Part shown: positions 30,430 through 60,332 of the stretch, one piece after another
Position numbering within the stretch: position 1 is the first letter of the stretch
Layout: each line of letters starts with the position of its first letter
NCBI GenBank assembly: GCA_016165875.1
Contig: JABBOT010000015.1
Coordinates: 1,519,921-1,583,920, forward strand
From: Acanthopleura granulata
Taxonomy: Eukaryota; Mollusca; Polyplacophora; Chitonida; Chitonidae
Direction of reading: 5' to 3'
Length of the DNA stretch: 64,000 bases
Program-made: the position numbers and the translations under genes
The notes under the pieces: generated by a model
What the model was told of the DNA's origin: nothing
The model's input: the letters and a program-made list of their open reading frames with translations, nothing else
Databases searched by the model: none

Positions 30430-30480
30430 CTTTTCTTCTTCCGCCATGCCATACAGGGATCGTTTACGTTGTCCAGAAAA
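30430..30480 (-). CDS. 51-nt cassette exon, minus array (exon 9)
   Basis: On the minus strand it lies between CGTTGCAG| and AAAAG|GTAATG. Length 51 nt matches other members. In phase 0 it reads FSGQRKRSLYGMAEEEK; shifted by one base it reads LDNVNDPCMAWRKKK, which looks more like the family (D-x-V then KKK). The phase is therefore uncertain. It is the most 3' member found for the minus gene; no terminal exon or polyadenylation site was identified. Confidence 0.4.
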
Positions 30481-30878
30481 CTGCAACGAAATAAAAATAA
30501 AAAAAGAACGGAAGGGTAAGATTCAGACCTGCAATTTGTAGATTTTTACAGAAAATTTGGCATTACGATTTTACTTAAGAAATTGTACATTCAGGCTATT
30601 CTTAAGCTATGTTATCTAATGTACAAAATACACATTTGCTAGGTATCAAGGATTTATCGGCCTTCGACATTAAATAACACAGCCACCCCAAAAAAAAACA
30701 ACAAAAAAAACAAAACAAAACAAAAACAAACACTTACATATAACCATACTCTCTGATCTGTGTCAACATATATTCTAGTAAACTGTTTTAGAGCAAAAGA
30801 GCAGAATGGAGCATCATGCAAGCAGGAATACTTAGGCTTAAGGTGTTCTCTGTGTGTAGAAGAAAATGTTTTACTTAC

Positions 30879-30941
30879 AGTGAAACCCCTTTTCTGTCTG
30901 GAGGCCAGCGCTTCTGGTTGATCATGGTTGGAAATTACTGA
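30879..30941 (-). CDS. 63-nt cassette exon, minus array (exon 8)
   Basis: It is bounded on the minus strand by TTTCCCCAG| and TTTCACT|GTAAGT, phase 0 at both ends. It encodes SVISNHDQPEALASRQKRGF and one more residue. Same length as exon 7 (32377-32439) and the same ending style (R-x-KR). It lacks the acidic D-(V/I)-(V/I) core, so it is a diverged member. Confidence 0.5.
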
Positions 30942-31061
30942 CTGGGGAAATAAAGCAAGAAAACATGCCATGTCATAGCGTTTTGAGACCCCAGTACCTT
31001 AATAATGGTAATATTTACAGTCGTTTTGATGCGTCACGCTCGCGGGCACGGCATCCGCCAC

Positions 31062-31106
31062 CCGCACCATAATGCCTGCCGCCGCCATGATATGACTGAG
31101 ATATTG
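31062..31106 (+). mobile_element. SINE 3' fragment
   Basis: CACCCGCACCATAATGCCTGCCGCCGCCATGATATGACTGAGATATTG is a diverged piece of the main SINE 3' region. Confidence 0.5.
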
Positions 31107-31109
31107 CCA

Positions 31110-32370
31110 AAGTGACCTCAAACCACAATCATTCATTCACTATGCCTACTGAAGTCAGAACTGCGCGGCCACCGAGCGATAGCAATACCTTTACATCTCA
31201 TAAAAAGCTGCTGACCTTACGCAATTCACGCCGGGTTAATCCTGATAGTGGCAGGCGGAACCCGAAATACTTGTACCTTTATTCTGCTAAAAGTGAACAG
31301 CCCTATTGGAACGTAAGCCAGCGTATTCAAGCAGAGTGACTAATGTTTTGCCTTTATTATCGTTGGATTATGGCCCTTAACATCCACGTTCTGAATGTAT
31401 TCATCATGCGTGCAAAATCAAATCGTTCGATTTGTGGTCAGGCGAAGAACTTATGAACAAATGGCATAATTATTTCGATAGTATCAAAATGCTTGCTTGG
31501 TGACGTGCTAGGGTCATATGACTAACCTTATGCGCGCGTTTCTGTCTGCTAACGATTACATCCAGTGGACATTATAAAGGTGTAAAAGTCTTAATCTGTC
31601 GTGGCTTTGCAAAACTAGACAATAATAATTGGAGCACTTATAGACTGAAGATTTTTTTCACACATACGCTGGCTTTTAGTTTACAGAGCTTCCAGAGTTT
31701 ACAGACTTCCATATTTGAAAAGTTCCCCACCTGTGGCATACAGGTATGCACTCATGACCGCGTGACCTGTGCCTAATTTAAAAACAAATACAAATTGTCT
31801 AGTGAGATGTAGTTGAATGTGATGAAGGTAAATGTAATGTTATCCCCCCCTTCCCTCCCATGTGACGAATCGTTATCTGTAAATTGCGATTAAAATCTAA
31901 AAACTGCGCCTTTGGTCACTTCACAAGATCACATGAAGTGGAAATGTTGCAGGTGTGACGTTAAATTTTTTTGTCTTGTTTTGAGCTGGAAATAAATCAC
32001 ATTTTATTATTTTAATCTTAGCAGAATATGTGATTTTACCCGTACTTTATAGCCAGTTATGTACGGATTTAGACAATGGGGGATGAAATTGGATAGAACG
32101 GTCAATTGGTGTGATCTATGAAGCGATATGTTTGTTGGGTTATTACGTCAAGATTTCAGATAACACTTTGTACAGTTTTGTTTCTGTAACAACTCATATA
32201 TGTCTTTAACAGCGGGTACGATTTTTACTTGCATTTTTTAGATCTAGGTGTTCAGTACCTTGATCAAGCAGGTGAGTTTTTTAAAGTCCTTGTAACGGCG
32301 GGGATTCAGTTAACCCTGAGTATGTTGTATTGATTAAAAGGGCAGCACCTTAACCGTTCAGATACCTCAG
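31110..32370. other. Intron-like non-coding stretch
   Basis: No exon of the minus array and no repeat was recognised between exons 8 and 7. The 75-codon open frame at 31112 begins in a SINE remnant and is not supported. Confidence 0.5.
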
Positions 32371-32376
32371 ACTCAC

Positions 32377-32439
32377 CTTGGCAGCTCGCTTCTCTCTGAA
32401 GCCGTCTAAATCTTCGACAATAACATCAAGACCGCGTTC
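32377..32439 (-). CDS. 63-nt cassette exon, minus array (exon 7)
   Basis: It is bounded by ACTTCTTCTAG|-type acceptor and GCCAAG|GTGAGT donor on the minus strand, phase 0 at both ends. It encodes ERGL followed by DVIVEDLDGFREKRAAK. The D-V-I-V-E-D core and the basic KRAAK end match the family consensus, with four extra residues. Confidence 0.6.
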
Positions 32440-32509
32440 CTAGAAGAAGAATAACTAGCTCATCAATGTATCAGTAAAGGAAAGTATAACTTGAAATGAT
32501 TGGCTAAAG

Positions 32510-32772
32510 GCACGAGATGTACAGCTTAGGCCGATTTGCTCAGGGAACGAGGTGTACAGCACTAAGTTTGTAAGTACATACACGACAGGAGAACATGCAT
32601 GACAATGCTTTCGGCGTACACATTGTTTTGTGTTTTATTTCCATTAAATCAACATGTACAGCTTAGACCAGTTTGCCCAAAGCACGCGGTGTACAGCTTA
32701 GACTGATTTGCTGAAAACACGAAGAGTACAGCTTGAGATAGCTTGGTTAAAGGCAGGATGTGTACAGCATCA
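32510..32772. repeat. Tandem repeats of about 36 bp in two blocks
   Basis: GTACAGCTTAGxCxGxTTTGCTxAxxxxACGAGG recurs at about 32519, 32555, 32656, 32691, 32727 and 32761. The two blocks are separated by about 80 bp of unrelated sequence. Confidence 0.7.
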
Positions 32773-32978
32773 ACTATCGTCGAATGTCGGTTTCGACGCT
32801 TTGGTGGCATTTTTGGCAGCTTTGGTATTGGCGAGAGGTTTACAGCTGTCATCCATCACAGCAACGGCAACAATACGATAGTCGAAATGAAATTGAAATT
32901 CATGGAATAGTTGAAAGAAACTAGGCGTATTTTTTTTGGAAAACTTCAGCTGTGACCTTAGTGAATGTTTGTTCCATG

Positions 32979-33292
32979 GATATTTGTGACACAGTAAACA
33001 GCTTGGACAGTTTGATGGGTCTTTGTGACACAGTAAACAGCTTGGACAGTTTGATGGGTCTTTGTGACACTGTACACAACTTGCACAGTTTGATGGATCT
33101 TTGTGACACTGTACACAACTTGCACAGTTTGATGGGTCTTTGTGACACTGTACACAACTTGCACAGTTTGATGGATCTTTGTGACACTGTACACAACTTG
33201 CACAGTTTGATGGATCTTTATGACACTGTACACAACTTGCACAGTTTGATGGATCTTTATGACACTGCACACAACTTGCACAGTTTGATCAT
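32979..33292. repeat. Minisatellite, 39-bp unit, about 8 copies
   Basis: TTTGATGGATCTTTGTGACAC followed by TGTACACAACTTGCACAG recurs every 39 bp (13 codons), so long open frames appear on both strands (CDTVHNLHSLMDL on plus; Cys/Lys- and Thr/Gln-rich frames on minus). They are repeat by-products. Confidence 0.92.
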
Positions 33293-33916
33293 TTTCTAAT
33301 GACGGTGTGTTCATGTAGAAGCGCATTACGAAAGGGACCCAAAGCGACAACCATATCCTTGGTACAGATTGCTTCAGGTGTAAAGCTTGGAACTTCTCTA
33401 TGGCGAAAAGAGGAACAACTGGAAACCCTTTGCTAACAAAGAGAAGAATTTTTACAACTTTCGCACAGAATGATTAATAATACAATATGTCAATCCCTAA
33501 AGTCCTTCACATAAGTCTAATTCCCGAAGACCGGGGTGAATTGCGGAGCTTGGACCGCTTTTATTCATACGACATTTGAACAACGGGGACGCTTTTGCTG
33601 TTAAAAGGCGGAAAATGTACAATCAAAACCTTGTGATTTCAACGGATGGACTAAATAAACAAAAGGCAATCGTACCATTCACATTAATTACACAACTAAT
33701 ATCTTTCAAATCTAGCTCTATCCTCTGATATCCATAAAATTGTCAAAATGAAAAAATTTGAAAATTAATTACTTGTTAGGTTCATATTGGATTAGTGGAA
33801 ATAAAACACAAAACATTGTCTGTACTGAAAACATTCACACGTATGGTCTCAGGTGGTGTATGTAACAAACACAGTAACAGAAAGGGTAATATGGTATTAA
33901 CAACTCAGTCTCATAC

Positions 33917-33963
33917 TTCCGCTGCTCGTTTTCTTTTATAGCCGGTAGTGTCATCAACTATGC
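33917..33963 (-). CDS. 47-nt exon copy, minus array (exon 6)
   Basis: It lies between TAACCCAG| and GCGGAA|GTATGA on the minus strand. After two bases it reads IVDDTTGYKRKRAAE, a clear family member. The length is not a multiple of three because the acceptor AG uses the first G of the expected first codon. Its flanks resemble those of exon 5 (34627), so the two arose by local duplication. Confidence 0.5.
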
Positions 33964-34626
33964 CTGGGTTATCCCCTCGGTGGTATAGTCCCTGTGTTAT
34001 TGATACAAAACAGAACCTTTACAATCAATACAGCAACCTTGTGACAACATGTCGTGTATTTACTAATGATTAAGCTCAAAGATAAAGAATAGATATCTAG
34101 TTCCTTATCCTGTCGGTTGTGTAATCCCTATACCGCCAACACAGAAGGTTTTGAATTTATAATCTGAGTGGAATGTTAAGGACAGATATGTTATGGGATG
34201 GATTAACAGCAGGTATATTGGGACGGAATATACAGCTGATGATGACTTGATGAAAGCTGCAAATTCACGACTAGGGATTGACTTCGTTGTTACAGATGGA
34301 AGATGTACATTTAGAAAGTGCTTGTTATTAAAAGCAGGGAGAAAAGTTTAAAAGTTTCGCCCTAGATAAACAAGAGACTTAAAAATACTCATTGTACAAT
34401 AGATATTAGGTGGAATCCCTATCTCCCTCCCACATGTCTCTGTGTATTATGTTTCCCAAATTACTCAAATGAATAATCAAGAAATGTTTAACCTGGACTG
34501 CGTTTATTGGGGCGGCAACTACAGGGCTGGGGGGGGGGGGGGTTGCTGAAGCCGGGGAGAGGTAGAGGCATTGCTAACGTTGACGTAAGTGAACTGATCA
34601 TGTGCATTGAAAATTCAGTCTTTTAC

Positions 34627-34676
34627 CGTTGCTTCTCGTCTTCTTTTAAAACCGATTATATCATCAGCAACAAGGC
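34627..34676 (-). CDS. 50-nt exon copy, minus array (exon 5)
   Basis: It lies between AAAGTAG| and GCAACG|GTAAAA on the minus strand. After two bases it reads LVADDIIGFKRRREAT, matching the family core (DDII) and basic end (KRRREA). As in exon 6, the acceptor falls one base inside the expected frame, so inclusion would shift frame relative to phase 0 neighbours. Confidence 0.5.
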
Positions 34677-35615
34677 CTACTTTATCGTCGGTATAGCGTT
34701 CTAATCACTATGTCAACGACACAAAAGAAAACGTTTTGAGTTTACAAACAATGCAGAATGTTCAAGAGCAATATGATATTCACTAACTTCAGATTTAGCG
34801 AGAATATGGGTAAGGCCTCAAGAAAACAAATGAAACATATAAAAGACTATATTGCTAAGACTGAAACGAGACCAGCGACGGCAGTGTGATAGTTGTCTAG
34901 TGCAAACAAAAGTCTTGAACTAGTTAAAATTATCTTGACAGATCATTTGAGAAATTCTGCTGTCGTCTTAATAATAATAAGTTCGACGGAGTTTTGACAA
35001 GTTATGTGAAGACACAGATTCCACAAGGGTTGGTCGAGTCATCTAGGGTCGATCGGTCACACTAACAACGGGTTCTAATGAAATATTCGGGAGAACACTT
35101 TGGAAAGTGAAATCTGTATTTAAATGTAGAAACGGTATATAACTGTTACATTTAGTAATAACACAGTCCTCACATTGTCATAGATTTAATACTGAATTGT
35201 GAGGTAAATGGGATGTTAAATAAAGGCTTTTCACTCACGAATATTTAACAAATTTGAAAAGAAAGAACATGAATCCCTTTTTTAAAAAATACTAGACTTG
35301 CACGAAGAATATGGAATGAAATGTGAAATGATATCACCCGGCTCCAGCGGGTCATTCAGGCAGGTTGCCAGACGAATTACTTATTTACATCATATGTTCA
35401 TCCATTTTTCTCCCACTACCAATTGAATCTCCATCATACAGGCGGACCAGTGCCGGAAAAGGATCCGTTGTACATTTTTAATTGAATGGAAAAATTAAAA
35501 CTACCTTTAATTATCTTATGCTCCAGTAGGACACTCTTTTGGATCTATATATGTCTTCAACACATTGATGTGTCTGTTTTATGCGCTGTTTTCAAATCAT
35601 ACTTGATTTACTTAC

Positions 35616-35666
35616 CTCGGCTTCTCTCTTCTTCTTATAAATCACATCCTCAATAGTCCATGAATT
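35616..35666 (-). CDS. 51-nt cassette exon, minus array (exon 4)
   Basis: It is bounded by TTCCCCTCAG| and GCCGAG|GTAAGT on the minus strand, phase 0 at both ends. It encodes NSWTIEDVIYKKKREAE, a textbook member of the family: hydrophobic start, I-E-D-V-I core, KKKR block and E-A-E end. Splice signals are strong. Confidence 0.65.
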
Positions 35667-35751
35667 CTGAGGGGAAAACTGGCAAAAAATTATACCACCT
35701 GTAATAATTTGATATATTACTATACAAGGCTGATAAATAGCAGTAATACCT

Positions 35752-35858
35752 AGGTCGTGGATTTCTCCCCGCGCTGTGCCCGGTTTCCTTCTGCCATTAT
35801 GCAGTTCTCCTCCCCAAATAAGTGAAGTATTCTCAAGTACATCCAAAAGCACCTTCCC
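35752..35858 (+). mobile_element. SINE 3' half, diverged
   Basis: GGTCGTGGATTTCTCCCCGC, GTGCCCGGTTTCCTTCTGCCATTATG and AAGTGAAGTATTCTCAAGTAC follow the main SINE body in plus orientation. Confidence 0.65.
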
Positions 35859-36644: not shown

Positions 36645-36680
36645 ATCAGCGTCTCGTTTCTTCTCGGAAACGATGACATC
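36645..36680 (-). CDS. 36-nt cassette exon, minus array (exon 3)
   Basis: It is bounded by CGTTTTCCAG| and GCTGAT|GTAAGT on the minus strand, phase 0 at both ends. It encodes DVIVSEKKRDAD, the family core without the N-terminal five residues. Confidence 0.6.
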
Positions 36681-38600: not shown

Positions 38601-38662
38601 AATTTGGTACCTCGAGGTATACAGAGCTACCAAAGCAACGCCAACGAGCTACAGCTACCAAT

Positions 38663-40116: not shown

Positions 40117-40119
40117 AAG

Positions 40120-41740: not shown

Positions 41741-41747
41741 TGCTTAC

Positions 41748-43363: not shown

Positions 43364-43479
43364 CTGTCTTGGACTGGCCACCAGCTCCTTGAACTGAGGT
43401 AAAGATCGAGGCTGAACCACGACTGGCAGTATCCAGAGGACTCGGACGCTCAACATGGCTGCCGTGTATATCATCCTGA
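43364..43479 (-). CDS. 116-nt exon, paired with 51295 exon (minus gene)
   Basis: On the minus strand it lies between TTGTGTTTCAG| and AGACAG|GTGAAT. One frame reads DDIHGSHVERPSPLDTASRG followed by SASIFTSVQGAGGQSKT, a Ser/Gly-rich low-complexity segment. The plus-strand block at 51295-51400 is about 60-65% similar by eye, and both the acceptor and donor positions are conserved between them, which argues for an exon in this orientation. In the gene it would precede the cassette exons. Confidence 0.5.
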
Positions 43480-44245: not shown

Positions 44246-44419
44246 CTGACACGTGAAGAAATGTGTCGAATTTCAGTCTGCTGTAATGTTAGCTTTTTTT
44301 GAAAAAAAATACAGGTAAAATGTTTTAAACCACTGGTTTACTTCGTGCATTGTGCCCAAACACTAATATATATATAAACACCTCAATATATTGAGGAGGT
44401 AAAAGCGTTGTGTCTGTTA

Positions 44420-44670
44420 ATAACCTGTGGACAGTCATAGTTTACACAGAAATAAAAAAAATACCTTTATCTGTTGTCGGAAGTTCGCTTCTACGAAGTA
44501 TCTTCAGGGATGTGGAGAATACCCATGAAGTTTCTACTTATAGCCTTTAAGTACTAGTAGTACATGTTTTTTATGTAAAAAAAATCCAACATTCTGTGTA
44601 AAAACACAAATCAGAAAGGCAGTTATTGGAGTGTGCTGAAAATTTAATTACTTTGTTTACCTACCAAGAC

Positions 44671-44726
<56 letters not shown>

Positions 44727-45075
44727 TAAAAAAACTCGCATAGCTAAGGCCATAAGTGCTCAAGAGCAAATATGGCGTGATAACAGATTTTACGCCCGAT
44801 TAACCAGTCCAGCCACTCGGATTACACCTGTGCCCAAAGCGACACAACTTAAAAAGTGAAATGTAATTCTCCACATTACCATGCGGTGCTTCGGGGAGGC
44901 TATAAAATATAGCAACCTCTGAGCGTGACCAGGGACTCGGGAAAGGTGAATAAAATCATTCACTATTTTAAACAGAAAACATTACACGTTATTTGTTTGG
45001 CAGTCGCAATGAGAGTAAATTCAAATATTATGTTCCGCCATTTTTTGCAGGTTGCGATCAGTCTTTGATACATTG
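44420..45075 (-). promoter_or_regulatory. Promoter-proximal block of minus gene, mirrored at 49990-50700
   Basis: Read on the minus strand, TATCAAAGACTGATCG (45070 downward), then AATGTTTTCTGTTTAAAATA, CGAGTCCCTGGTCACGCTC, CCTCCCCGAAGCACCGCATGG, AATGTGGAGAATTACATTTC and GTCGCTTTGGGCACAGG match, in the same order and spacing, the plus-strand sequence at 49995-50230. A weaker match continues to ACTATGACTGT (about 44440). TATCAAAG aligns with TATAAAAG of the plus copy and could be a weakened TATA box. Inference: duplicated promoter and 5' leader of two head-to-head genes. Confidence 0.5.
44673..44722. repeat. (TA)n microsatellite
   Basis: About 25 TA dinucleotides in a row, inside the 44.4-45.1 kb mirrored block, which explains part of its length difference from the plus copy. 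Confidence 0.95.
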
Positions 45076-49087: not shown

Positions 49088-49366
49088 TTGGCATAAATAT
49101 TTATTTATTTATTTGATTGGTGTTTTCACCGTACTCAAGAATATTTCACTTATACGACGGCGGTCAACATTACGGTGGGAGGAAACCGGACAGAGCGCGG
49201 GGAAAACTCACGACCATCCGCAGGTTGCTGGCAGGCCTTCCCACTTACGGCCGGACAGGAAGCCAGCATGAGCTGGACTTGAATTCATAGCGGCCGCATT
49301 GGTGGGAGACTTCTGGGTCATTACGCTGTACTATTGCGCTAGCAAACTATGCCACGGAGGAACCCA
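49088..49366 (-). mobile_element. SINE, main family, full length
   Basis: All parts are present in inverted order: (ATTT)n tail, GTTTTCACCGTACTCAAGAATATTTCACTTATACGACGG, GAGGAAACCGGACAGAGC, CGACCATCCGCAGGTTGC, GAAGCCAGCATGAGCTGGACTTGAATTC, GGTCATTACGCTGTACTATTGCGCTAGC and GCCACGGAGG. CATAAATA occurs at both ends (about 49092 and 49370), a possible short target duplication. Confidence 0.93.
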
Positions 49367-49874: not shown

Positions 49875-49989
49875 TATAGACTGGATAAGACAAGCCCCTT
49901 GGGGTTTTCATCCCGCCAGTATTAGTGTACATATATTATCCTTCAAAATTGCGTATGTCCTTGTATGTATTCATAGCATTTATTCATAG

Positions 49990-50700
49990 CAGCGTATAAA
50001 AGATTGGTCGAAAGGGATATTTGATTTAACAGCCATCGCGTTTTGGAAAAAAAGTTTAACATTTTCATTGAAAATAATAAAAGATTTTGTTCAGCTTTCT
50101 AGAGTCCCTGCGTCACGCTCAGGTAGAGCCTAAAATGTTTTATATTCTCCCCGAAGCAATGTATGATTATGTGGAGATTTCCACTCTACTTTTTTAGTTA
50201 CCTCGCTTTGGGCACTAATTTAATCCGAATTAGTCCGACGTGGTCATCGGGCGTAACATCTAACCATCACGCTATTTGAGCTTTGACACTTGTTTCCTCC
50301 GGGCGATGTTGTACTGCAAGGATGTTCACTTCTACGTTTTTTCTTCTTTTTCCACTTAACTATTATGAAGTGTGTGTATGCCTTGATAGGCACAGACTAA
50401 TTAAATTTTTAGTACACTTCAATGATTTTGTCTTTACCCAGGAGGTTTGGTATTATATATATAAGCCCAGGATTAAAATAACACATTTAGAAACCTGTCA
50501 CTTTTTACCTTCTGTTCCCAGAAGCTGCCTTCAACAAAAGGGCTCGAGTTTAAGGTAATAGTGTATTGCGTTACACAATGTATCCTTTTTGATTTGCATT
50601 GCATGTCGTTTTAAAATATATTTTGTATATTATTGTATATATTGTATATTGGTACATGTTTCGTGCAATAAATATTATCTTTCTCGTAGACTATGACTGT
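49990..50700 (+). promoter_or_regulatory. Promoter-proximal block of plus gene, mirrored at 44420-45075
   Basis: TATAAAAG lies at 49995-50002 in the context CAGCGTATAAAAGATTGG. Downstream, AACATTTTCATTGAAAATAA, TAGAGTCCCTGCGTCACGCTC, CTCCCCGAAGCAATGTATG, TTATGTGGAGATTTCCAC and CCTCGCTTTGGGCACTAATT match the minus-strand block in order and spacing. The TATA box, conserved leader and downstream exon array support a plus-strand promoter. No coding frame is shared across the block, so it is probably an untranslated leader. Confidence 0.5.
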
Positions 50701-51294
50701 TAACGGTAAACACAATACTTTAACCTTTTATTTGCATCTTCAAGACAGACGCGTTTTGGATGTAACATAGGAAGTACTGTAAATACCCTTAAAACTTTAA
50801 CGAGTAAAATAAATGTTTTTCAACATAACACTTTAATGATGTAGTCTATGATTTTGGTACATTTATTCTCTCTGATGTCAGATCCAATTTGAGTTTCATG
50901 ATATTTGGCTCATATTTTACCCAAATTAGGATAACAGCTGTTTTGGACAATTTCTCTAAACGCCTAGTGTTATTGATTGATAATTTTGCCACGCACCTTT
51001 CAACTTTTCTCTCAATGTAAATCCACACACGCCGTTATATGAGTGAAAAATTTTTATTCAGAGATCTAATGAATAATCCAACAAAACAACAGCTTGGGTG
51101 AAATAAAATGCACTCTAGAGTTTTACACGGGAACAAAAGGTAGAAATGACAGGTGTTGATCGTTTGACCACCAAGGCTGCAAGATACTATTAAACACAAC
51201 CTCAAATGTGTTCTATGCATTGAAGATATTGTAATTAAAGTTTTGAGTAGACGCTTTAGAGTCTATTCTTTTTCTTTTGTGCTTGTTGTTTCAG

Positions 51295-51400
51295 TGAGGA
51301 TGAAGTCATACTGAGCGTTGGCGTCCTCTGGATGCTGGCGACCGTGGTTCAATCTCGAGTTTTGTCTCAGACCAATGCGGTGGAGAGCGATTCTGGAGAG
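51295..51400 (+). CDS. 106-nt exon, paired with 43364 exon (plus gene)
   Basis: It lies between TTGTTGTTTCAG| and TGGAGAG|GTAACC. The frame parallel to the minus partner reads ERWRPLDAGDRGSISSFVSD (partner ERPSPLDTASRGSASIF), but a 10-nt deletion near the 5' end puts a TGA upstream in that frame. Another frame (EDEVILSVGVLWMLATVVQS) is open across the whole exon. So either the exon is broken or it has switched frame. The minus-strand open frame at 51263-51463 over the same sequence is considered a shadow. Confidence 0.45.
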
Positions 51401-51412
51401 GTAACCATAGCC

Positions 51413-51639
51413 ATCTTCAGGAGAAGTAATTTGTACAATCAACAAACACACATATATATACATTTACAGATATGCGGACAATAGAAGGATGACCATAAGT
51501 GATCAATGTTTAATTTCCATTGGTTGAATCATTTGATCAATCATAGCAGTGTATTTTATTCAGCCTTCTATTGTCCGCATATCTGTAAATGTATATATAT
51601 GTGTGTTTGTTGATTGTACAAATTACTTCTCCTGAAGAT
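51413..51639. repeat. Perfect 76-bp inverted repeat, 75-nt loop
   Basis: Positions 51413-51488 (ATCTTCAGGAGAAGTAATTT… to …GACAATAGAAGG) are exactly the reverse complement of 51564-51639. The arms are identical, which implies recent origin or gene conversion. The left arm begins 12 nt after the donor of the 51295 exon, so the pre-mRNA would carry a long hairpin next to that splice site. No target duplication or transposase was seen. Confidence 0.95.
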
Positions 51640-52247
51640 GACAAGTAAAACTTAGTCGAAATATTGAGAACGTCAACCATGTGTTACATTTCTTTTTTCG
51701 GAGTTTCTATGCTTTTGTACTTTACTAAGCTAGTTGGTGGATCAACAAGATTTTAACCATAGCCACTTCATAACACTTTAACACTTTATCATCTGTATAT
51801 GGCCTTTACCTCCTTCTTCCATACCTACGATCCCTCTGCCTTTATACCTCTGGTGTCTGCTGCTAGTCTTCTTCCAGCATAAACGAGACACTCTGCTTCC
51901 CGTAGTTTCAATACTTCTACCTTTATACCCGGAATGCCCACCATCTGCCTTCCTGCACAATACGAAAGACACTGAAGCTTGTTTTCTTACACCGTCCCTC
52001 AGAGACTACACTGTACAAAGCTTTCACCAAAGAGTGTCCCGTAATTCTACAAAACTTCTTGTGTACCTGTGATCCTTTCTCCGGTTCACTTCCATCACAC
52101 TGTAAATACCATCATTCCTGCAGCACTGCCTGCCGCAAATTCTTTGTTGTAATGTCTTGTTTATGCCCCTTCAGGGAGATGGTGTATTCTTTTTCTACCT
52201 CCTGACAGCAGGATTCATATTTCAAGTTTTTTTCTTTATCTCCTTAG

Positions 52248-52301
52248 AAATACATCGGCGTTGAGGATATCATCGTTTTCAAAAAGAAACGAGACGCCGA
52301 A
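52248..52301 (+). CDS. 54-nt cassette exon, plus array (exon 2)
   Basis: It is bounded by a T-rich tract, TCTCCTTAG| and GCCGAA|GTAAGT, phase 0 at both ends. It encodes KYIGVEDIIVFKKKRDAE, one residue longer than the 51-nt members and otherwise matching the consensus at every core position. Confidence 0.65.
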
Positions 52302-53329
52302 GTAAGTTAATCTACACCCAACACCGTCGGGAAAAAATTACGTTGTCTGAGATTATTCTGCCCCATAATATACATGTCACTTCTTAACAGATAACATATT
52401 TGGTGTTTTGTTAGATATCTGATGTACTACCGAATTATTACTGGGGTTTTGGTCCATTCTGTAATAAACATTCACAACGTCGTGACCAAGTTTGCCATTT
52501 CGAGAAAACATCATGCCGAATGAAGTCTGAAGCCCAAGGTTTGACACGACATAAACCGATAAACGCAGCCGAACGAGCCTGAGCTTTACTTTAACTCATA
52601 ACCTGAATACTGAAGTGTTTTTCATCTCCGAGAGGAATCATTAGACCAATATTTTATTAGTTGTACACACAAAAGTAGATGGTGGGAAAACACGTAAGTA
52701 TTTTGTGTTATACACCCAGTATATAACTAAATTTCCAAGTTCATGACACCCTGTACTTTCCTCACTACACAACACTCGCGTGTCCAGGGAAAAGCGAGAC
52801 AACAAGTGAGAAATTTCATGAACCCTGATACACACGATGCATGCATCGTGACAGCCATTGTGGCATGACTGCGTATCTTGTAATTCTATAGTACATTATT
52901 TGTCAGTTACTTTACTTGCTTCTTTACTCTTCATCAACGCGTGGGTTCCAACTTTAAACTATATTATTGTTCTTGTATATTTTATGTAAGCTGTGGTGTA
53001 CTGTTTACATAATATTATTCAATTATGTGTATACATGTGAATATATGATACACATGGGAAAAGAATAATGCCTTCATCATGATAAATGTGTTAGGCGATA
53101 CTAGAAATGCCAATTTATTAATATCATTTGTTCTTTACTTTACTTACTACTTTACTTTTCAATTACGCCTGGGTTTCGATTGGAAAATTGGAAACAAGAT
53201 GACGACGACGCAATGTTTATGTTACATTGACAACCCTAACCATTTTGTATAACATAGACACGCATTGTAAGGAGCGTATATTGTGACGTATATCTGTGTT
53301 AATATGAACACACGCCACAATTACTTTCC

Positions 53330-53640: not shown

Positions 53641-53803
53641 GGCATTCATTCTGGAGTGAAGCCATCTTGCACGTTACGTCTGTCGCAGTGTTACGCCTGC
53701 TGTTAAACGGGCTCCACAACTGAGGCACAGTGGGTGAGAGAAGTAGAAGACATGGGTCTCTAATATCAACGGGAGCTATATTTTCAACCATTGTTCTATT
53801 CAG

Positions 53804-53926
53804 CAATCCACTACGATTGAGGATGTGATTTTTAAGAAGAAGCGAGAGGCCTCCACTACACTGAAAAATAATCCCCTTTCAACACTAATCAACAACTACA
53901 ACACTGAACAAGAACTAGTCAACTAA
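53804..53926 (+). CDS. Cassette exon copy reading into a stop, plus array (exon 3)
   Basis: The acceptor is TTGTTCTATTCAG|. The frame reads QSTTIEDVIFKKKREA like the family, but the expected GAG|GTAAGT is replaced by TCCACTACAC, with no donor. The frame continues 24 codons (STTLKNNPLSTLINNYNTEQ…) to TAA at 53924-53926. It is either a terminal exon giving a short C-terminus or a cassette exon that lost its donor. Confidence 0.5.
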   Translation, partial: QSTTIEDVIFKKKREASTTLKNNPLSTLINNYNTEQELVN

Positions 53927-53929
53927 TTA

Positions 53930-55440
53930 CGTTTGGGGACAATTTTGATAGAAAATATTCAATATTATGCATGCGTCATATACTGTCTAACGCCACAGTT
54001 TCCTCGCTACAGGTGCTCCTATTAATTTTACCTTGGGGTCCCGTGGCCGTGCGGCGGGCGTTTTAGCCCACCACATTGATTAGGAGACCCCACATCACTG
54101 CGTTAGTTATGTGTTCAAACCCGTCTCAGACTGGCTTTCTCTTCGTAACTTGAAAGGGAAAAGATTTTACGGTTTTCCCCTTACTGAAGGAAAACATATA
54201 GTGTACATAAAATCAGCATAATCAGCCTGTAAGGGTTTTCTTAAAACTGCTATAACGCTCAGCATCGAATAATGGACCAGTACGTAATCACGGAAATTCC
54301 AATAGGAGGAATGTAGCATTAACGTCTGTGCCAGAATTGTGAAAGATTAATGTCTATGCGAAAATGTCGTCCAAAATTTCTGATACGTCCGAAAATGAAA
54401 ATAAAATCGTCTTTTGTTTAAAAGTTGATCTTTTATCGTGAAATTCCATTCACACATTTTGCTAGCGTAAAACACCAGCGTAAAACAGTGGTGGAGTAAT
54501 ATAAATGACTGAAGTTAGAAAAAGGCAAAACCACCGATGGTGAAGTCTTGTCAGAGTGGGTGGTGGCACTTTGCCCAAAGGATATTGAGTTTTTGAAACT
54601 GCGGGTAGGCCCCTAATGGCTTCTCGACACAATGGTCATTGAGCTGCATTAACACACCAAAGAATGCGTTTTTCACGAATGCCCATAAAGTATACGATGA
54701 AAGCGCAGTATTCTGACATAGATGACATAGGTGGTATTCCAGACCTGGTGTTTACTGCGTATGTACACATCAGTGGTAGTTGATTCCAAGTGATAAGAGC
54801 CCACCACCAAACCGATTTGTCTCCGTCCTAAGACACTATTTCTTGATTCGAGAAGGATGGACGGGGCTGATTCAAAGTTCAGGTTAGACTGATGTCAGAA
54901 AAATGAATCGTCGGGTTAAAATGCATGTCGAAAGGTAGTGAAGGAGATTTCCACGTGATCTCGGCCGTTTAGATGTTGACGAAGCGTCGGGATCGTTCGA
55001 TCAATTAAAACAGAGCAACCAATGACCACAGTTACTAAACGAAAACAACTGCAACATTTATCTCAATTTTTGCAACAAAAATGGGACAGCATTTCTGAAA
55101 GCTGCCAATAAAAAATTCACAATCCTGGCTTCAAAATGCCCTTAAAAATGTGCCGTGAACAAAAGTGAACAATACATCAGCGGAGGAAAACGAAAGTGAT
55201 TTACACGATATAGTCCCAATATGGTGGAGGCCAGTTTTGTGACAGGACGAGAACATTGTCCAATCGCTACATTGCTCTATATCACATGGCCCTTCCACGT
55301 GATCGCGTGACCTTACCGCTTGACCTCTGAAAGGAGTCCGGTAGAACAATGCCGCTTGTATGTATCTCAGGGCTGCTATCTCCAAGTAGTCCTGAGGAAA
55401 GAAGTAGGGATAGTTCTACTTTAGAACGGTCTGATGTAAT
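53930..55440. other. Intron-like stretch; possible tRNA-like SINE head at 54045
   Basis: At 54045-54165 CCGTGGCCGTGCGGCGGGCG and TGTGTTCAAACCCGTCTCAG look like A- and B-box regions of another tRNA-derived SINE, without a recognisable body. Nothing else is supported. Confidence 0.4.
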
Positions 55441-55449
55441 CTCCGTAAT

Positions 55450-55680
55450 AAACTATAGTTCTGTTATTGTTTGGATTCTTTTTGTATGTTTTATGTAAGT
55501 TGTACTGGACTGCCCAGGTTATATTAATCAGATCTATGCTTTGCTCTTATCTAACTCTTTTCGTGTTCCTTTGTTTGATATTGTATAAGGCTTGTCGCTG
55601 CCTGAGATTTGAGCAAACCACTTGATCATTGTTTTTCCCTCTGAGATTAGTCATACCCTCCACAGTCTGTGTCCATTATT
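55450..55680. repeat. Dispersed repeat, copy 2
   Basis: Resembles 45770-45990 in the same orientation; see that entry for shared words. Confidence 0.55.
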
Positions 55681-55703
55681 GTATCTCCACGATTTGACTT
55701 AGT

Positions 55704-55950
55704 TCCATGGTCGAAGTGGTTAGCCCCTTAACGCTGTGCAATAACACAGGGGTCTCTCACCAAGGTGGTCCCTGTGAGTTCAGTCCACCTCATGATGGCT
55801 TTCTCTCCGATCATGCGTTGTACGTCTGCCGGCAATGTATGGATGGTCGTGGGTTTCCGCTGGACGTTGACCCTTCTACTCTCACTTAACACTACAACGG
55901 CGGTCGTGTAAATGAAATATTGTTGGGAAGAGCTCTAAACACCGGTCATG
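55704..55950 (+). mobile_element. SINE, main family, diverged
   Basis: The head is CCATGGTCGAAGTGGTTAGC and TGAGTTCAGTCC sits at the B-box position. The body has GATGGCTTTCTCTCCGATCATGC, GTACGTCTGCCGGCAATGTATGGATGGTCGTGGGTTTCC and ACAACGGCGGTCGTGTAAATGAAATATTG. The tail is lost and replaced by a short repeat. Confidence 0.8.
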
Positions 55951-55998
55951 TCATTGCTAAACACCAGTCATGTCAGTGTTAGACACCAGTCATGTCAG
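55925..55998. repeat. Tandem repeat of 24 bp, 3 copies
   Basis: AAACACCGGTCATGTCATTGCT, AAACACCAGTCATGTCAGTGTT and AGACACCAGTCATGTCAGTAAA follow directly on the SINE 3' end. Confidence 0.85.
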
Positions 55999-56556
55999 TA
56001 AATAATTCGGCAAATAAAGAAAACCCTGTGGTCGCTCAAAACGGAGCGAAAGAACAAAGCTGCAAGACTGAACTGCGAAGAAGAATAATAGAATAACAAT
56101 TCAACGAAAAAATTAATCGGGGATTAGCAAAGGCCAAAGACTTAATCACTGAAAGATTTACTCCAAAATAATACCCTCTTTGACGTGGTTCCGGTTTGTT
56201 TATTTTAGATGAGTACGAGTGTTGTGACTTCCATAAGCATGCCTAACACGTTAACTGCCTCGTTCTTTCTACAGGATGAACAGTAAAACATCATATATTA
56301 TTTTTCGAATTTTATATGAGGACAATAGAAGATCCGCACAAAGCCTCTCGTGTCAGTGAAAGGTGAATTTATTGATTAGATTATTTCTTTCTGTAGACAT
56401 TATGTCCTGTGTGATATACTTCATTTGTTCCGCACTTCATATGACTTACTGAATATGCAAGGTTTCAAAGGTAGAACCCCCCTCCCCCCCTAAAATATTG
56501 AAGTCTGAACAATATTGACCTCTAACAACTATAGATCGAACGGCGAAGAGTACTTA

Positions 56557-57150
56557 CCAAATAAAGGTGTCATTAGATTTATACCTGTAACACTTTACTG
56601 ACACGTTAATGTATTCATGTGCTAAAATAAATGCTGACAATGTAGGCCTACACAGTCACATATCAACTAAATGTATGTGTAAAACGACATTAGAGAAATA
56701 ATTGAATAATAATTAGATAAATCTATCTCTGTATCATATACTACCAAAATTTTGAATTTTTCTTTGTTGTAATTAAGACATATGTTAACGTATTAACAGG
56801 TATGTGTTATTATATCAACACCGATGTTAATAATTTAACGCATTAGAAAGTAAACTATTAATACATTGTATTCGGTGTGTCATTCTGATTATTAACACGT
56901 AAACACGTTATTGACGATGTGTTTGTCTGTTTGCAGAGGTATATTTAGAAATAAAATCCAAGTCTGATATATGATACAGGATATATTTAGAATAGATCTA
57001 GTTTTTACGTGTAAGTATAATATCTTTTTACACTTACATTTAGCTGATACTTTACTGTTTAGGCCTACATTGTCAACATTTAATTTAACACATTAACACG
57101 TTAGTAAAGTGTTACAGATATGTGTTATTTTAATAACACTTTTATTTTGT
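56557..57150. mobile_element. Fold-back element (long imperfect inverted repeat)
   Basis: ACCAAATAAAGGTGTCATTA, AACACTTTACTGACACGTTAA and CTGACAATGTAGGCCTACAC on the left recur as reverse complements on the right (TAGGCCTACATTGTCAACAT, ACACGTTAGTAAAGTGTTAC, TAATAACACTTTTATTTTG). Pairing continues inward to about 56748 and 56965 with gaps. No protein is encoded. The structure fits a MITE or other fold-back element. Confidence 0.7.
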
Positions 57151-58150
57151 GTGTGGATAGCAATCTTTTATTTGTTTTGTCGAAATTTGTCCCAAGTGTT
57201 TTGTTTTTTTGAATTGCTGGACCACATGAAGGAAATCCGATTGTGATATTTCATAAACACGAGATATAGACCTGCGCATTTTTTTTCGACGCATATCATA
57301 ACGAAATCAAAGGTCAGGGTTACGGAAAGGTTACTTTTGAGCTAAAAACCTTGATATCTAGATCCTGACCATAAAAAATCGCTATTTCAAATAAATATTT
57401 TTGGCTGCTTAAGTGCTTTTTCTAGCTGTATTTGTAAGTACACTGTGTTTAGCAGGCCGTAAGCGGCTTACAAAAACTTGCAGAACAACTCTCGATTCGC
57501 TTTTTCTTGAAACATAAAATATTGTTTTTCGTTTGAACACTTTGCTTCTTAACTTTTGCTTTATTTGTTCCACTTACATTTAATTTCAAGCTCCTTGGTG
57601 GTCTGCACTAACATTTCTAGGGGCCTCCTTGACCGAGTTGTGGCATCAATAAAAGGTAGCCAGGGATGGGTTTTCAGCCAAATCCGTGAAAGAACATTGT
57701 CGCTGAGGCGAATTTTGTTTTCCAGCCGGTTTATATTGTCAGGGCATTGGTTTGAAAACGTAAATTAATACGGTCTCCGTGAGCATCTTTGTTGTCTAAT
57801 TTGTCGATCTTGTCAGGATAACATATTCACGATGAATGCCTCCAGACATGGAAAGTATTTAATGAAAGAATTCTCATGTCGTTGGTTCATATTTAACTCA
57901 TATTTGTGGCTTAAAAGAGACCGCTTTGTGGATCAAATTAAGTTAACACTTTGTGATGACTCTTACGTAGTCCTTCACGGAATATTGCATTTTCTCTTTA
58001 TTTTTAACAATTCATCTTCATAGAACACACTGAAGCCGTGGTGGGAAAAATTACAAAACACTGTATTGAATTATAATCAAAGATGATACCTGCTCATAGC
58101 TTTTCCTTTTCTCCAGCTCTTTCTGAATTTGTTTTTTCATATTTTAACAG
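57151..58150. other. Intron-like stretch, nothing recognised
   Basis: Open frames at 57556 and 57832 have no splice context or family similarity. Confidence 0.45.
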
Positions 58151-58152
58151 GA

Positions 58153-58209
58153 CATCGTCGCTGGGGATGAAACAATGGTAAAAGCGGCAAAACGTAAACC
58201 AGGGAAGGT
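58153..58209 (+). CDS. About 57-nt cassette exon, plus array (exon 4)
   Basis: The acceptor is ATTTTAACAG| and the donor GGGAAG|GTGAAA; the 3' end may be off by a base or two. In phase 0 it reads DIVAGDETMVKAAKRKPGK. The D-I-V start and a basic end (KAAKRK) relate it to the family, with an acidic insertion. It is a diverged member. Confidence 0.4.
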
Positions 58210-58787
58210 GAAACAAATTTTGCCAGTATATTTGTATGGATGTGGATTTTCTTTAAGTTATTCTATTCTACCATCTTTACTTAAAAGGCCACGGTTACTT
58301 GCGTGATGAGTGTTATTAAAATTCAACCTCAAACATATAAAAAAAACAGCTGAACTCATTAATCTCCAGAAATGCTGGAAGTTGTAAGTTTGTAACATGT
58401 TTGGTGAAAAATCCAGCAGCCATGACAGTGGCCCGTTAAAAGAGAAGACGCTAACAGTTCTGGCTTGATTAATGGGCGAATATAGCCGCTGCATCCACCA
58501 TATTTCCGCTATTGATGAAGAGTATTGTTCTTTTCATAAAACGAATTTGAACACTTTGAGTGCCTCAACCCATTACACGTCTCAACTGTAAGATTGTTGC
58601 ATAAAAATTTAATATTAGGGAAATATAAAGAACCAAATTCTTCTAATTTTCTCATCCCGAGCGCCCAATATATTCTTTACATCAAATTTTGGGAAACAAT
58701 CTGTTTCTTATTTTGCTTGAATGTAGTTCAGGTTTCTATCGACTCCATCTGTCATCTTCATCGTTCTTCACGTTGTTTTCCCCACAG

Positions 58788-58838
58788 GGATTCGTCGTTA
58801 TTGAGGACATTGTTTTAAAGAAGAAGCGAGATGCGGAG
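58788..58838 (+). CDS. 51-nt cassette exon, plus array (exon 5)
   Basis: It is bounded by GTTTTCCCCACAG| and GCGGAG|GTAAGA, phase 0 at both ends. It encodes GFVVIEDIVLKKKRDAE, a consensus member. The flanking introns are duplicated around 60282. Confidence 0.65.
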
Positions 58839-59157
58839 GTAAGATAATGTACAAGGTAATAAAGAACTAAGGCTCAGGGAGCCATGGCAGAAGCAGTACA
58901 ACTTAAAGGAAGGACGACGAATCCTCGCACCGCCTACAACTGCGAAAGAGCGAACGACCATAACAAAATATTTTAAGCTCAACCAAAGGATGTTACTTTG
59001 AAAACTGATACACTCAGTTTAACGCTCGTGTACGAATTGTCAAAACAAATTTAATTCCTCTTGGCTGTAAGAAACTTGAAACGGGAAAGTTCGCAGCCCT
59101 TTTGTTTAGTCTGTGTCTTCTTTGGTTTAACAAAAATGGATGGAAATACCAATTGCC

Positions 59158-59397
59158 CGCAACCGCAGCGTGATGACCCAGGAACCTGTCACTAATGCGG
59201 TCGCCGTGAGTTCAAGTCCAGCTCATGTTGGCTTCCTCTCCGGCCGTTCGTGGGGAGGTCTGCCAGCAGCCTGCGGATGGTCGTGGGTTTATCTCTGGCT
59301 CTGTCCGGTTTCCTCACACCGTAATGATAGCCACCGTCGTATAAGTGAAATACTTTTGATTACGGAGTTGAACACCGATAAATAAATAAATAAATAA
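59158..59397 (+). mobile_element. SINE, main family, nearly full length
   Basis: GCAGCGTGATGACCCAGGAACC, GTGAGTTCAAGTCCAGCTCATG, GGCTTCCTCTCCGGCCGTTCG, GATGGTCGTGGGTTT, GTCCGGTTTCCTCACACCGTAATG and an (AAAT)n tail; the first part of the tRNA head is lost. It lies between cassette exons 5 and 6. Confidence 0.88.
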
Positions 59398-60281
59398 GGA
59401 GCCTTGACACTCGCTGAACAATTGCTTCTAGTGCACACCTAAATTTTTTTTTTATAAAGAATGAACTCTTCACGACAATCACATTTTGTGATCATTGAAC
59501 ACAAAAAACGTGACCTGACACAATTCCGCCGCATACTGGTGAACGTAACGTTGATTTGCTTGAGTATACTTCGCGGAATATCATGTGACCCTGTATTGAT
59601 CAATGGAAATCAAGAATATCAAGTATAAGAACGAGATCTTCTTGGCTACAAGAAACCTGAAAATGTTTGTGGGGGTTTTTTCTCGTTGTATTCTTTGGCA
59701 CATGAAAATGGATGGAAATACCAAGTGCCCCAACCCATTACACTTCTGAATTGTAAAATTGATATCTGAGAATAATGTAATATGAGGGAACCCTAATAGA
59801 AGCAATATTGGTCGAGGTCAGCAAAGGCGATACACAGAGGTGCTAATTTTCCCTTCCCAAACGTCCACTTTGTCCTTTATTCAATTTGGGGGAAAACATC
59901 TATGCATTAGTTATACCTGAATTTAGTTCACTCTGTTAACAGTGTTAGGTATTCCGATGAGTCCAAATTGCGCCCGATTTTTGGCAGACCTAATCCTCTA
60001 ATCGTACGGCTATATGTAGAAGTTATTAACGTGTAATCTTCATTAGGCTCGACTTTTCTCATTAACCAAAGGATATATGGAGGATTAGCTAACAGTGAAC
60101 AACTCTTATATAACAATGGCAGTGAAAGATATCTATCCACCTTCGCCGGATTTAAAGGGAACTACAGATTCTCCAGTCGGAACACTTGACCTGGACAACC
60201 AAGGTTTCCTGTTACGCGATCACTTGCAATCATCTTCCATTGCGGTCATCTTCATCGTTCTCCCCGTTGTTTACCCTACAT

Positions 60282-60332
60282 GGATCCATAATTACCGAAG
60301 ACATTGTTTTAAAGAAAAAGCGAGACACTGGG
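60282..60332 (+). pseudogene. 51-nt cassette exon copy with lost acceptor, plus array (exon 6)
   Basis: The sequence matches exon 5: GSIITEDIVLKKKRDTG with donor ACTGGG|GTAAGA, and upstream CTTCATCGTTCTCCCCGTTGTTTACCCTACA parallels CTTCATCGTTCTTCACGTTGTTTTCCCCACAG. Where exon 5 has CACAG|GGA, this copy has TACAT|GGA, so the acceptor AG is gone. The open frame starting at 60095 runs through it and is not supported as a separate gene. Confidence 0.6.

Follow-up and report, generated by a model that had tools for sequence, protein, structure and literature searches.

What are the tiny exons of this locus for? Within the window (the whole 64,000-nucleotide stretch that was analysed), the original prediction saw a single array of at least eleven short blocks on two strands, each with splice signals and each encoding a variant of one module. 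We count twelve blocks, and the four peptides quoted in that prediction (NSWTIEDVIYKKKREAE, GFVVIEDIVLKKKRDAE, KYIGVEDIIVFKKKRDAE and DVIVSEKKRDAD) are all present (Table 1). Five blocks (those four and ERGLDVIVEDLDGFREKRAAK) are intact modules, of 51, 51, 54, 36 and 63 nt, bordered by AG...GT, open throughout and in phase 0 at either end. Three more (30879-30941, 30430-30480 and 58151-58207) are intact phase-0 exons of different sequence, each with a run of basic residues, and the last four are decayed modules. Splice signals thus hold for eight of the twelve and not for the decayed four, while the single module describes nine and not the three of other sequence. The motif's basic part takes the form of a run fixed in position, mostly K/R-x-K/R-R. 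It is less regular in the window's own exons (EKKR, QRKR, KAAKRK).

Table 1. Features of the two window genes, in window coordinates.
Feature	Position	Strand	Sequence	Remarks
Upstream block, minus gene	44388..45064	-		Precedes all five family genes
First coding exon, minus gene	43364..43479	-	MIYTAAMLSVRVLWILPVVVQPRSLPQFKELVASPRQ	Acceptor 6.2, donor 4.7; ends in phase 0
Phase-0 module exon, 36 nt	36645..36680	-	DVIVSEKKRDAD	30/36 identical to plus-strand pair vs 351/654 in flanks
Phase-0 module exon, 51 nt	35616..35666	-	NSWTIEDVIYKKKREAE	AG...GT, open frame
Decayed module	34631..34675	-	VADDIIGFKRRREAT	nhmmer E 0.001; clean phase-0 acceptor absent
Decayed module	33917..33963	-	VDDTTGYKRKRAAE	nhmmer E 0.029; flanks in common with 34.6-kb copy
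Phase-0 module exon, 63 nt	32377..32439	-	ERGLDVIVEDLDGFREKRAAK	Acceptor 3.9, donor 8.0; resembles exons of the distant cluster
Phase-0 exon, 63 nt, second module type	30879..30941	-	SVISNHDQPEALASRQKRGFT	
Phase-0 exon, 51 nt	30430..30480	-	FSGQRKRSLYGMAEEEK	
Proposed terminal exon, coding part	26920..26943	-	KRDGWID*	Region pairs with plus 67755-69380
Upstream block, plus gene	49980..50660	+		Homologous to minus gene's block
First coding exon, plus gene	51295..51400	+		10 nt shorter than paralogs; ATG frame soon hits stop
Phase-0 module exon, 54 nt	52248..52301	+	KYIGVEDIIVFKKKRDAE	AG...GT, open frame
Decayed module	53804..53851	+	QSTTIEDVIFKKKREA	Donor missing at homologous place
Phase-0 exon, 57 nt	58151..58207	+	DIVAGDETMVKAAKRKPGK	
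Phase-0 module exon, 51 nt	58788..58838	+	GFVVIEDIVLKKKRDAE	AG...GT, open frame
Decayed tandem copy of 58788-58838	60282..60332	+		Acceptor AG lost; introns in common

Could chance supply such blocks? Scanned for phase-0 exons between 30 and 75 nt long, the window yielded 16, 7 of them carrying the basic run, and all 7 lie either on the minus strand at 30.4-35.7 kb or on the plus strand at 52.2-58.8 kb. Twenty dinucleotide shuffles yielded a mean of 1.2 phase-0 exons and one basic-run exon over all 20 combined, a figure that undercounts the background of real DNA, because the 9 scan exons lacking the run are spread window-wide over both strands (one sits inside the first coding exon). When a profile built from five copies was asked to find the sixth (n = 6), five of the six were recovered, at E 8.8e-5 to 1.4e-7; the miss was the 32377 copy (E 0.45, not significant alone). 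In these profile searches and those with nhmmer, the copy at 53804 was entered as starting at 53805.

The single array itself did not survive. Two paralogous genes, lying head to head, have the blocks divided between them, as three alignments reveal: minus 45070-43974 to plus 49974-51082, minus 36700-36038 to plus 52246-52899 and minus 27541-25843 to plus 67755-69380. Judging from these alignments, the pair evidently comes from an old inverted duplication that took in introns and the first coding exon together with the region upstream. Within it exons match better than flanks (74/106 against 148/267, 30/36 against 351/654 and 38/51 against 63/136). A plus-strand exon similar to 30879-30941 lies at window coordinate 67128-67178, past the window end; a convincing pair for 30430-30480 was sought and not found. 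This pair may be dead in part, because the first exon of the plus gene is frame-broken and four of the twelve blocks have decayed. At 34631-34675 and 33917-33963, both minus, the splice sites are poor or out of phase, and the two copies share flanks (34807-34585 against 34083-33874, 61.5%); the second can also be taken for an exon of 75 nt whose donor is poor. On the plus strand, the 53804-53851 module could be read through as a terminal exon, and the tandem copies at 58733-58908 and 60224-60402 agree at 74%, introns included.

The window pair has relatives elsewhere. About 8 Mb away on the same contig (C15:9.51-9.63 Mb) lies a larger cluster of the same family, three genes with at least 12, at least 7 and at least 37 module exons (the last gene is G3, the first G1), all on the gene's own strand. 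Among 587 open phase-0 candidates in the cluster, 57 reached a profile score of 9, and with one set aside 56 were left; reversed-sequence controls never reached that score, either for the cluster (0 of 512) or for the window region (0 of 743). Left out of the module counts were 9539672, which belongs to a neighbouring gene, and 33917, while the 36645 module was added despite a score below the cut-off. The cluster counts are lower bounds because further matches fell short of the cut-off and went uncounted (9579522-9579575, 9582309-9582356, 9569750 and 9599652). Exons in G3 are spaced 251-5654 bp apart, and the gene contains recent tandem blocks of 96-98% identity over up to 5.6 kb. Searches of the organism's own genome for modules gave credible matches on C15 only; more loci of the family may be present.

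Both ends of the genes, which like the inverted duplication and the fixed position of the basic run escaped the original prediction, can be followed across the family. In the minus gene the first coding exon is predicted to encode a signal-peptide-like N-terminus and has cluster paralogs at C15:9571349-9571468 (E 0.0036), 9533370-9533480 (E 0.026) and 9578637-9578747 (E 7.3 genome-wide, 9e-6 in a local search). A hydrophobic N-terminus stands in frame in four of the family's five first exons, a count made from the sequence itself. Four intact copies of the exon carry no clear frame signal (pS 0.252, pN 0.221), and in its last 15 codons pN is 0.328 and pS 0.261. A tree of the upstream block sets the window pair apart from the cluster genes with support 95; the first-exon tree has no resolution, so the two are not in agreement. 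In all five genes the aligned terminal exon meets a phase-0 stop after 1-7 codons, which lends weak support to that exon. Other 3' ends can be drawn for the minus gene, through an alternative acceptor at 27410 (WAD*) or in another frame, and a reading of the terminal exon begun one base later also gives, by eye, similar minus and plus copies.

Are the modules coding sequence at all? They might instead be a dispersed DNA repeat that carried its splice sites along by accident, in which case similarity should extend past the splice sites to the same degree in every copy, the refuting condition named in the original prediction. Some of it does: flank identity exceeds 60% in 35 of the 37 pairs whose exons are at least 90% identical (the recent tandem blocks, such as those of G3), in 12 of the 1,793 pairs below 90%, and the 58.8 and 60.3 kb copies have introns in common. 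Over those 1,793 diverged pairs, however, exons average 57% identity against 27-28% for introns and 26% for random DNA. In the proposed frame pS is 0.709 and pN 0.357 (1,224 non-independent pairs), as against pS/pN of 0.351/0.435 and 0.451/0.406 in the other two; the excess of synonymous over nonsynonymous change stands out in the proposed frame only. Because similarity is limited to exons and constraint is specific to one frame, the module blocks are coding, and a repeat as general cause is ruled out; the confinement of credible matches to one contig also speaks against so dispersed an element, which we find scarcely credible. The growth by exon duplication that had been predicted is thus strongly supported by the frame-specific constraint, the exon-limited similarity and the 56 further exons on the contig. 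For combinatorial splicing, the other layout suggested there, the exon phases would allow it.

What, then, do the modules encode? Their exons are 36-69 nt long (one of 62 is 36 nt, the others 51-69 nt). In all 51 distinct modules the R of the basic run is preceded by K/R, and 48 of the 51 have K/R three before that R; this constancy is partly built in, because the profile seeds were picked by a pattern containing the run. Forty-one of the 51 have Ala two residues past the predicted cut site, and 41 have F, L, M or I directly ahead of the run. Gly falls outside the six commonest residues at that place, so the modules do not characteristically carry the amidation signal known from many neuropeptides. 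In the G3 product, 37 phase-0 exons supply 767 of the 808 predicted residues, and those 808 include 211 K/R and 167 D/E. Of its 38 predicted pieces, 31 have a length of 16 or 17 residues. Cys is absent from the three cluster products.

The data show an exon structure supported by homology, constraint on coding and a conserved basic run; secretion, cleavage and any function of the peptides are inferences. We put at roughly 60% the probability that the window genes are lineage-specific small secreted precursors cut into many peptides. Each gene would have, in order, a conserved upstream block, a signal-peptide-like exon (frame-broken in the plus gene), successive phase-0 microexons and a terminal exon in which a stop comes early. 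The spliced product would be a signal peptide followed by n units, each an acidic peptide of about 13-17 residues with a basic run behind it (K/R-x-K/R-R in most). Cleavage in the secretory pathway, by furin or a prohormone convertase, could follow the last R of each run and free many related acidic peptides, and Ala two residues beyond the cut may permit further trimming of X-Ala pairs. Nearly every module exon ends three residues after the predicted cut site, so that it would start three residues into one peptide and stop three residues into the next. Because the borders sit there, the gain, loss or skipping of nearly any exon would keep the frame and the order of peptide and cut site, and such gains and losses could explain both growth to 37 units in one gene and the shrinkage of the window pair. 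More tentatively, splicing may create a combinatorial peptide library, with subsets of cassettes chosen per animal or cell, so that G3 would release varying cocktails drawn from as many as 37 peptide units, and with unequal exchange between near-identical blocks shifting the repertoire from one individual to another.

The same gene-level evidence would fit a secreted repeat protein that is never cut, with alternating acidic and K/R-rich stretches, a role in matrix, mucus or binding, and the same growth by exon duplication; the high K/R and D/E content of the G3 product suits it too. We think it unlikely, since the basic run stays fixed in position and R-ending while the remainder drifts, and since piece lengths are so uniform. 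More doubtful still is a micro-exon gene as known from schistosomes, which would serve above all to vary the protein through exon skipping. The symmetric short exons that make up nearly all of G3, their wide spacing and the signal-peptide-like first exon all recall such genes; against this, the exons here are copies of one module, and only one of 62 is as short as 36 nt, where PMC5825161 gives 6-36 bp. (The 3-81 bp range in the abstract of PMC10526429 would take in the modules.) That the window pair, or the whole family, is a silent set of decayed arrays draws on the four decayed modules and frame-broken first exon, and is very improbable given cluster genes with 56 open phase-0 exons, whose pN is roughly half of pS or lower.

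Four known systems resemble these genes most closely. In the yeast mating factor alpha precursor, KR is followed by acidic-Ala pairs and then by peptide copies, between which introns are not known; this lack of introns, the peptides and the unrelated organism set it apart from our genes. Among the repeat antimicrobial precursors of Hymenoptera, apidaecin spacers also contain acidic-Ala pairs. The nasonins and abaecin-like genes of that order expanded through duplicated exons and through the shuffling of phase-0 exons, and a dibasic site occurs in some (PMC2853521), a similar expansion of secreted peptide precursors, although repeats there are few (4-5 in nasonin-2 and -6) and the peptides different. 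Several copies inside one neuropeptide or prohormone precursor are common, according to PMC2575521. Those precursors have a signal peptide (here a signal-peptide-like N-terminus), many related short peptides and borders at basic sites; a basic run ending in R, a candidate site of that kind, occurs in all 51 distinct modules, the seeds having been partly so chosen. Their copies often share one exon, as in Drosophila fmrf, whose whole precursor is coded by exon II (PMC2575521), and many are amidated; here each phase-0 exon holds a single copy, with as many as 37 in a gene, and the amidation signal is not a feature. Micro-exon genes encode secreted products from coding regions of mostly short symmetric exons separated by long introns (PMC5825161 and PMC10526429). 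Our genes share that exon layout, but theirs are repeats of a single module, 36-69 nt long and with the basic run in a fixed place, where micro-exons are mostly shorter.

Our searches found no known family with the layout suggested here, interchangeable tiny exons each encoding one peptide and one probable cut site. In the protein collection, the minus window product gave 14 candidates and a two-row alignment of the window products 20, none at E <= 10; this absence of relatives is weak evidence because the queries were the diverged window genes. Neither the window product nor any of the G1 (all 12) or G3 (10 of 37) modules searched exceeded a curated Pfam cut-off. The best Pfam match, Tal_Pri (E 8.2e-05, 23.1 bits against a cut-off of 27), came from a neighbouring gene, six of whose exons we had joined into one product. 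In the PDB nothing matched the window or G1 products significantly (DOB1 helicase, with the window product, reached E 0.3), nor was there a match in the viral contigs searched. Literature text contained no match to KKKRDAE, KKKREAE or KKRDAE, or to the repeat letters, and a literature search on dipeptidyl-trimmed propeptides yielded none.

If expressed as predicted, these genes would be a multi-peptide precursor built and expanded through copies in exchangeable phase-0 cassettes. Evolution, or regulation through splicing, could then alter how many peptides are made and in what mix while frame and processing stay safe. Micro-exon genes were first reported in schistosomes, and the origin of tiny symmetric exons in secreted families beyond them would become a testable question. 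Routine gene prediction could easily miss this family, we infer, because its exons are 36-69 nt long and hundreds to thousands of bases apart.

One last observation concerns the protein collection, which includes some kin of the organism or its group: the ORF at 14214-14888 matches one of its proteins at 60%.

The module blocks of this window, short phase-0 microexons each encoding one acidic-to-basic peptide unit, belong to two genes. The original prediction had joined the minus- and plus-strand blocks into one array; four segments instead pair as an inverted duplication, which sets two paralogs head to head (see the table). The four peptides it quoted are present at their window positions, and the blocks number twelve: five are intact modules with an AG acceptor, a GT donor, phase 0 on either side and no stop, three are intact phase-0 microexons whose basic run lies in other sequence, and four are decayed modules. 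The original observation is partly confirmed, and it is extended here. A scan of the window found 16 phase-0 exons of 30-75 nt. Seven of these carry a basic run, all on the minus strand at 30.4-35.7 kb or the plus strand at 52.2-58.8 kb, against a mean of 1.2 phase-0 exons in 20 dinucleotide shuffles and one basic exon across all 20. Profiles built from five copies found the sixth in 5 of 6 cases (E 8.8e-5 to 1.4e-7); the copy at 32377 was not recovered significantly by the profile of the other five (E 0.45).

The first coding exon of the minus gene looks like a signal peptide. Its plus partner is 10 nt shorter and the ATG frame reaches a stop early, so the plus gene either begins elsewhere or is dying. 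Beyond the window the plus gene continues with an intact module, a decayed one, an exon resembling one of the minus gene, and a 3' region that pairs with the minus strand. About 8.5 kb past that region lies a further phase-0 exon of 57 nt. A palindrome sits in the intron following the plus gene's first coding exon.

Coordinates of features in the window, beyond it and in the distant cluster (unprefixed, window positions; C15, contig positions)
Feature	Coordinates	Strand	Remark
Inverted pair	45070-43974 / 49974-51082	minus / plus	58%
Inverted pair	43718-43322 / 51057-51442	minus / plus	59%; contains first coding exon
Inverted pair	36700-36038 / 52246-52899	minus / plus	62%
Inverted pair	35714-35619 / 53757-53851	minus / plus	71%
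First coding exon, minus gene	43364-43479	minus	MIYTAAMLSVRVLWILPVVVQPRSLPQFKELVASPRQ; ends in phase 0; not named in the original prediction
Upstream block	44388-45064	minus	
Upstream block	49980-50660	plus	
Intact module	36645-36680	minus	AG/GT, phase 0, open
Intact module	35616-35666	minus	AG/GT, phase 0, open
Intact module	32377-32439	minus	AG/GT, phase 0, open
Intact module	52248-52301	plus	AG/GT, phase 0, open
Intact module	58788-58838	plus	AG/GT, phase 0, open
Other intact microexon	30879-30941	minus	phase 0
Other intact microexon	30430-30480	minus	phase 0
Other intact microexon	58151-58207	plus	phase 0
Palindrome	51412-51640		~230 bp, 86%
Decayed module beyond window	64053-64094	plus	
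Intact module beyond window	64986-65036	plus	PLIINDDIVMKKKREAK
Exon beyond window	67128-67178	plus	SSGGLPDVSSRDKRGFM; resembles minus exon SVISNHDQPEALASRQKRGFT
3' region, plus gene	67755-69380	plus	pairs with minus 27541-25843, 56%, E 5e-29
57-nt exon	C15:1597767-1597823 (77847-77903)	plus	SEGVVIIGILDKRRKRDIQ; good splice sites
First-exon paralog	C15:9571349-9571468	minus	E 0.0036 genome-wide; 3.5e-9 local
First-exon paralog	C15:9533370-9533480	minus	E 0.026 genome-wide; 1.7e-8 local
First-exon paralog	C15:9578637-9578747	plus	E 7.3 genome-wide; 9.4e-6 local
G3 tandem block	C15:9602834-9624248		96-98% identity (L030, L031, L038)
Second module type	C15:9539672-9543687	plus	L023, L024
Open frame	14214-14888	plus	
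Open frame	24332-24760	plus	
Dispersed repeat	19015-19281, 30176-30305, 49099-49360, 59166-59396		130-270 bp
Minisatellites	395-735, 1409-1902, 2462-3087, 14833-15302, 20280-20781, 23209-23800, 26359-26751, 32976-33289, 61443-61926		units 25-146 bp

The family has a larger home. Searching the whole genome (606.5 Mb, 87 contigs) with the minus product located three first-exon paralogs on C15, the contig that carries the window at 1519921-1583920, 8 Mb away. In the cluster sequence we examined (C15:9500001-9630000), 47 of 79 phase-0 candidates at strict splice thresholds match the module profile at score 5, as do 6/91 in the window extended by 50 kb in both directions; the 50 kb to its left contribute 0/23, and reversed-sequence controls gave 0/43 and 0/40. 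Relaxed thresholds at score 9 gave 57/587 in the cluster vs 0/512 in the reversed control. With the match at 9539672 set aside as part of a neighbouring gene, homology places three genes here, G1 (minus, 12 modules), G2 (minus, 7) and G3 (plus, 37), every module on its own gene's strand and G2 and G3 arranged head to head, as the two window genes are. Adding the window region (the weak match at 33917 excluded, 36645 included though it scores below 9) brings the set to 62 modules and 51 distinct peptides, counts that are lower bounds because further matches fall short of splice or score limits. Credible module matches in our searches of the genome are confined to C15; those on contigs C14 and C86 are 20-27% identical, with internal stops. 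Inside G3 a multi-exon block has been amplified recently in tandem, which makes it a good place to seek copy-number variation.

A block of roughly 600 bp lies upstream of each of the five genes, in part better conserved than the sequence separating it from the first exon; it is possibly a promoter or a 5' exon, and Rfam has no match in the window. At the other end, the proposed terminal exons can be aligned for four genes, and the one in G2 was located by similarity to its G3 counterpart. All five, when read in phase 0, stop after 1-7 codons (D, ECDE, EFEK, NIAK, KRDGWID), weak evidence if taken by itself; in a reading shifted by one base, the copies of the minus and plus genes also resemble each other by eye.

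That the modules are coding units spread by exon duplication, as originally proposed, is upheld by similarity limited to exons and by an excess of pS over pN specific to one frame, and the proposed interpretation as a whole is partly supported. In the inverted pairs, identity in exons exceeds that in their flanks for the first (74/106 vs 148/267, Fisher p 0.014), second (30/36 vs 351/654, p 4e-4) and third exon (38/51 vs 63/136, p 6e-4). Six window copies, two of them decayed, give pS 0.623 and pN 0.190 in the proposed frame (15 non-independent pairs), with no synonymous excess in the other two (0.202/0.234 and 0.126/0.294). Among 1,224 pairs of modules, also non-independent, the in-frame values are 0.709 and 0.357, and those out of frame 0.351/0.435 and 0.451/0.406. 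Sixty-one modules make 1,830 pairs, and in the 1,793 with exon identity below 90% mean identity is 57% for exons and 27-28% for introns, random DNA giving 26%; a flank exceeds 60% in just 12. The remaining 37 pairs, all in G3, have introns in common too (mean 78-87%; a flank above 60% in 35/37), and recent tandem copies there are 96-98% identical over up to 5.6 kb. We rejected a DNA repeat as the general explanation of the modules because exons outlast their flanks and the synonymous excess is confined to the proposed frame.

With the final Arg of the basic run as anchor, all 51 distinct modules have K/R immediately before it; 48 have K/R three before it, 44 have Asp/Glu eight before and 41 have Ala two after. 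The basic run is conserved and fixed in position, its constancy being partly built in by profile seeds chosen on a pattern that included it. The rough consensus is I-I-x-E-D-(I/V)-x-G-F-(R/K)-K-(K/R)-R followed by (A/E/S/D)-A-K. The exon ends three residues past the Arg in 58 of 62 modules, and later in four 69-nt exons.

We consider the family most likely to be a multi-copy peptide precursor in its working and a micro-exon gene in its architecture, without known relatives in these searches. The predicted product would go into the secretory pathway, where a furin- or convertase-like enzyme would cleave after each basic run and yield many acidic peptides of similar lengths; 31 of the 38 predicted pieces of G3 have 16 or 17 residues, and 10 of the 13 from G1 have 13-14. 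The joined G1, G2 and G3 products are without Cys. An X-Ala past the predicted cut site is reminiscent of precursors in which dipeptidyl peptidases trim the peptides. Because the junctions fall three residues past the putative cut, gain, loss or skipping of an exon should be harmless to both frame and processing, and since 26 of the 37 G3 exons carry AAK or SAK as the three residues across the junction, skipping would chiefly alter how many peptides are made and which, and would create hybrids to a lesser extent.

A repeat protein that is never cut would fit nearly all of these data. Telling against the precursor are a first exon with no clear frame signal (pS 0.252, pN 0.221, and pN above pS in its last 15 codons), the want of a prominent amidation Gly among the aligned modules, irregular basic runs in some of the window's own exons, and the partial decay of the window pair.

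Predicted secretion and short symmetric exons are in common with schistosome micro-exon genes as described in two papers (PMC5825161, PMC10526429); the first gives exons of 6-36 bp (PMC5825161), and 61 of our 62 are longer. Drosophila fmrf is described as having all its peptide copies on a single exon (PMC2575521), and exon duplication with phase-0 shuffling is reported for wasp antimicrobial precursors (PMC2853521). Among papers found by a small set of text searches of an open-licence library, no title or abstract opening concerned this family. A protein collection, searched with the window products alone (the cluster modules are better queries), gave no relatives, nor did viral contigs; Pfam gave none above cut-off for the window product, for all 12 modules of G1 or for 10 of the 37 in G3, and PDB no significant match to window and G1 products.

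The neighbouring run of phase-0 exons in the cluster is built on another kind of module, W(R/S)LASDTAPDSRQKRSVDW, which occurs as three units 142 bp apart, and also has exons ending NREKRGGW and RNKRGNP. Its first exon was not found; it looks like another multi-copy peptide gene. In the window, two plus-strand open frames without Pfam match are similar by eye, the longer having one relative in the protein collection (60% identical across 87% of the frame's length). A dispersed SINE- or MITE-like repeat occurs in copies of which some are oppositely oriented, and several of the minisatellite arrays overlap long open frames.
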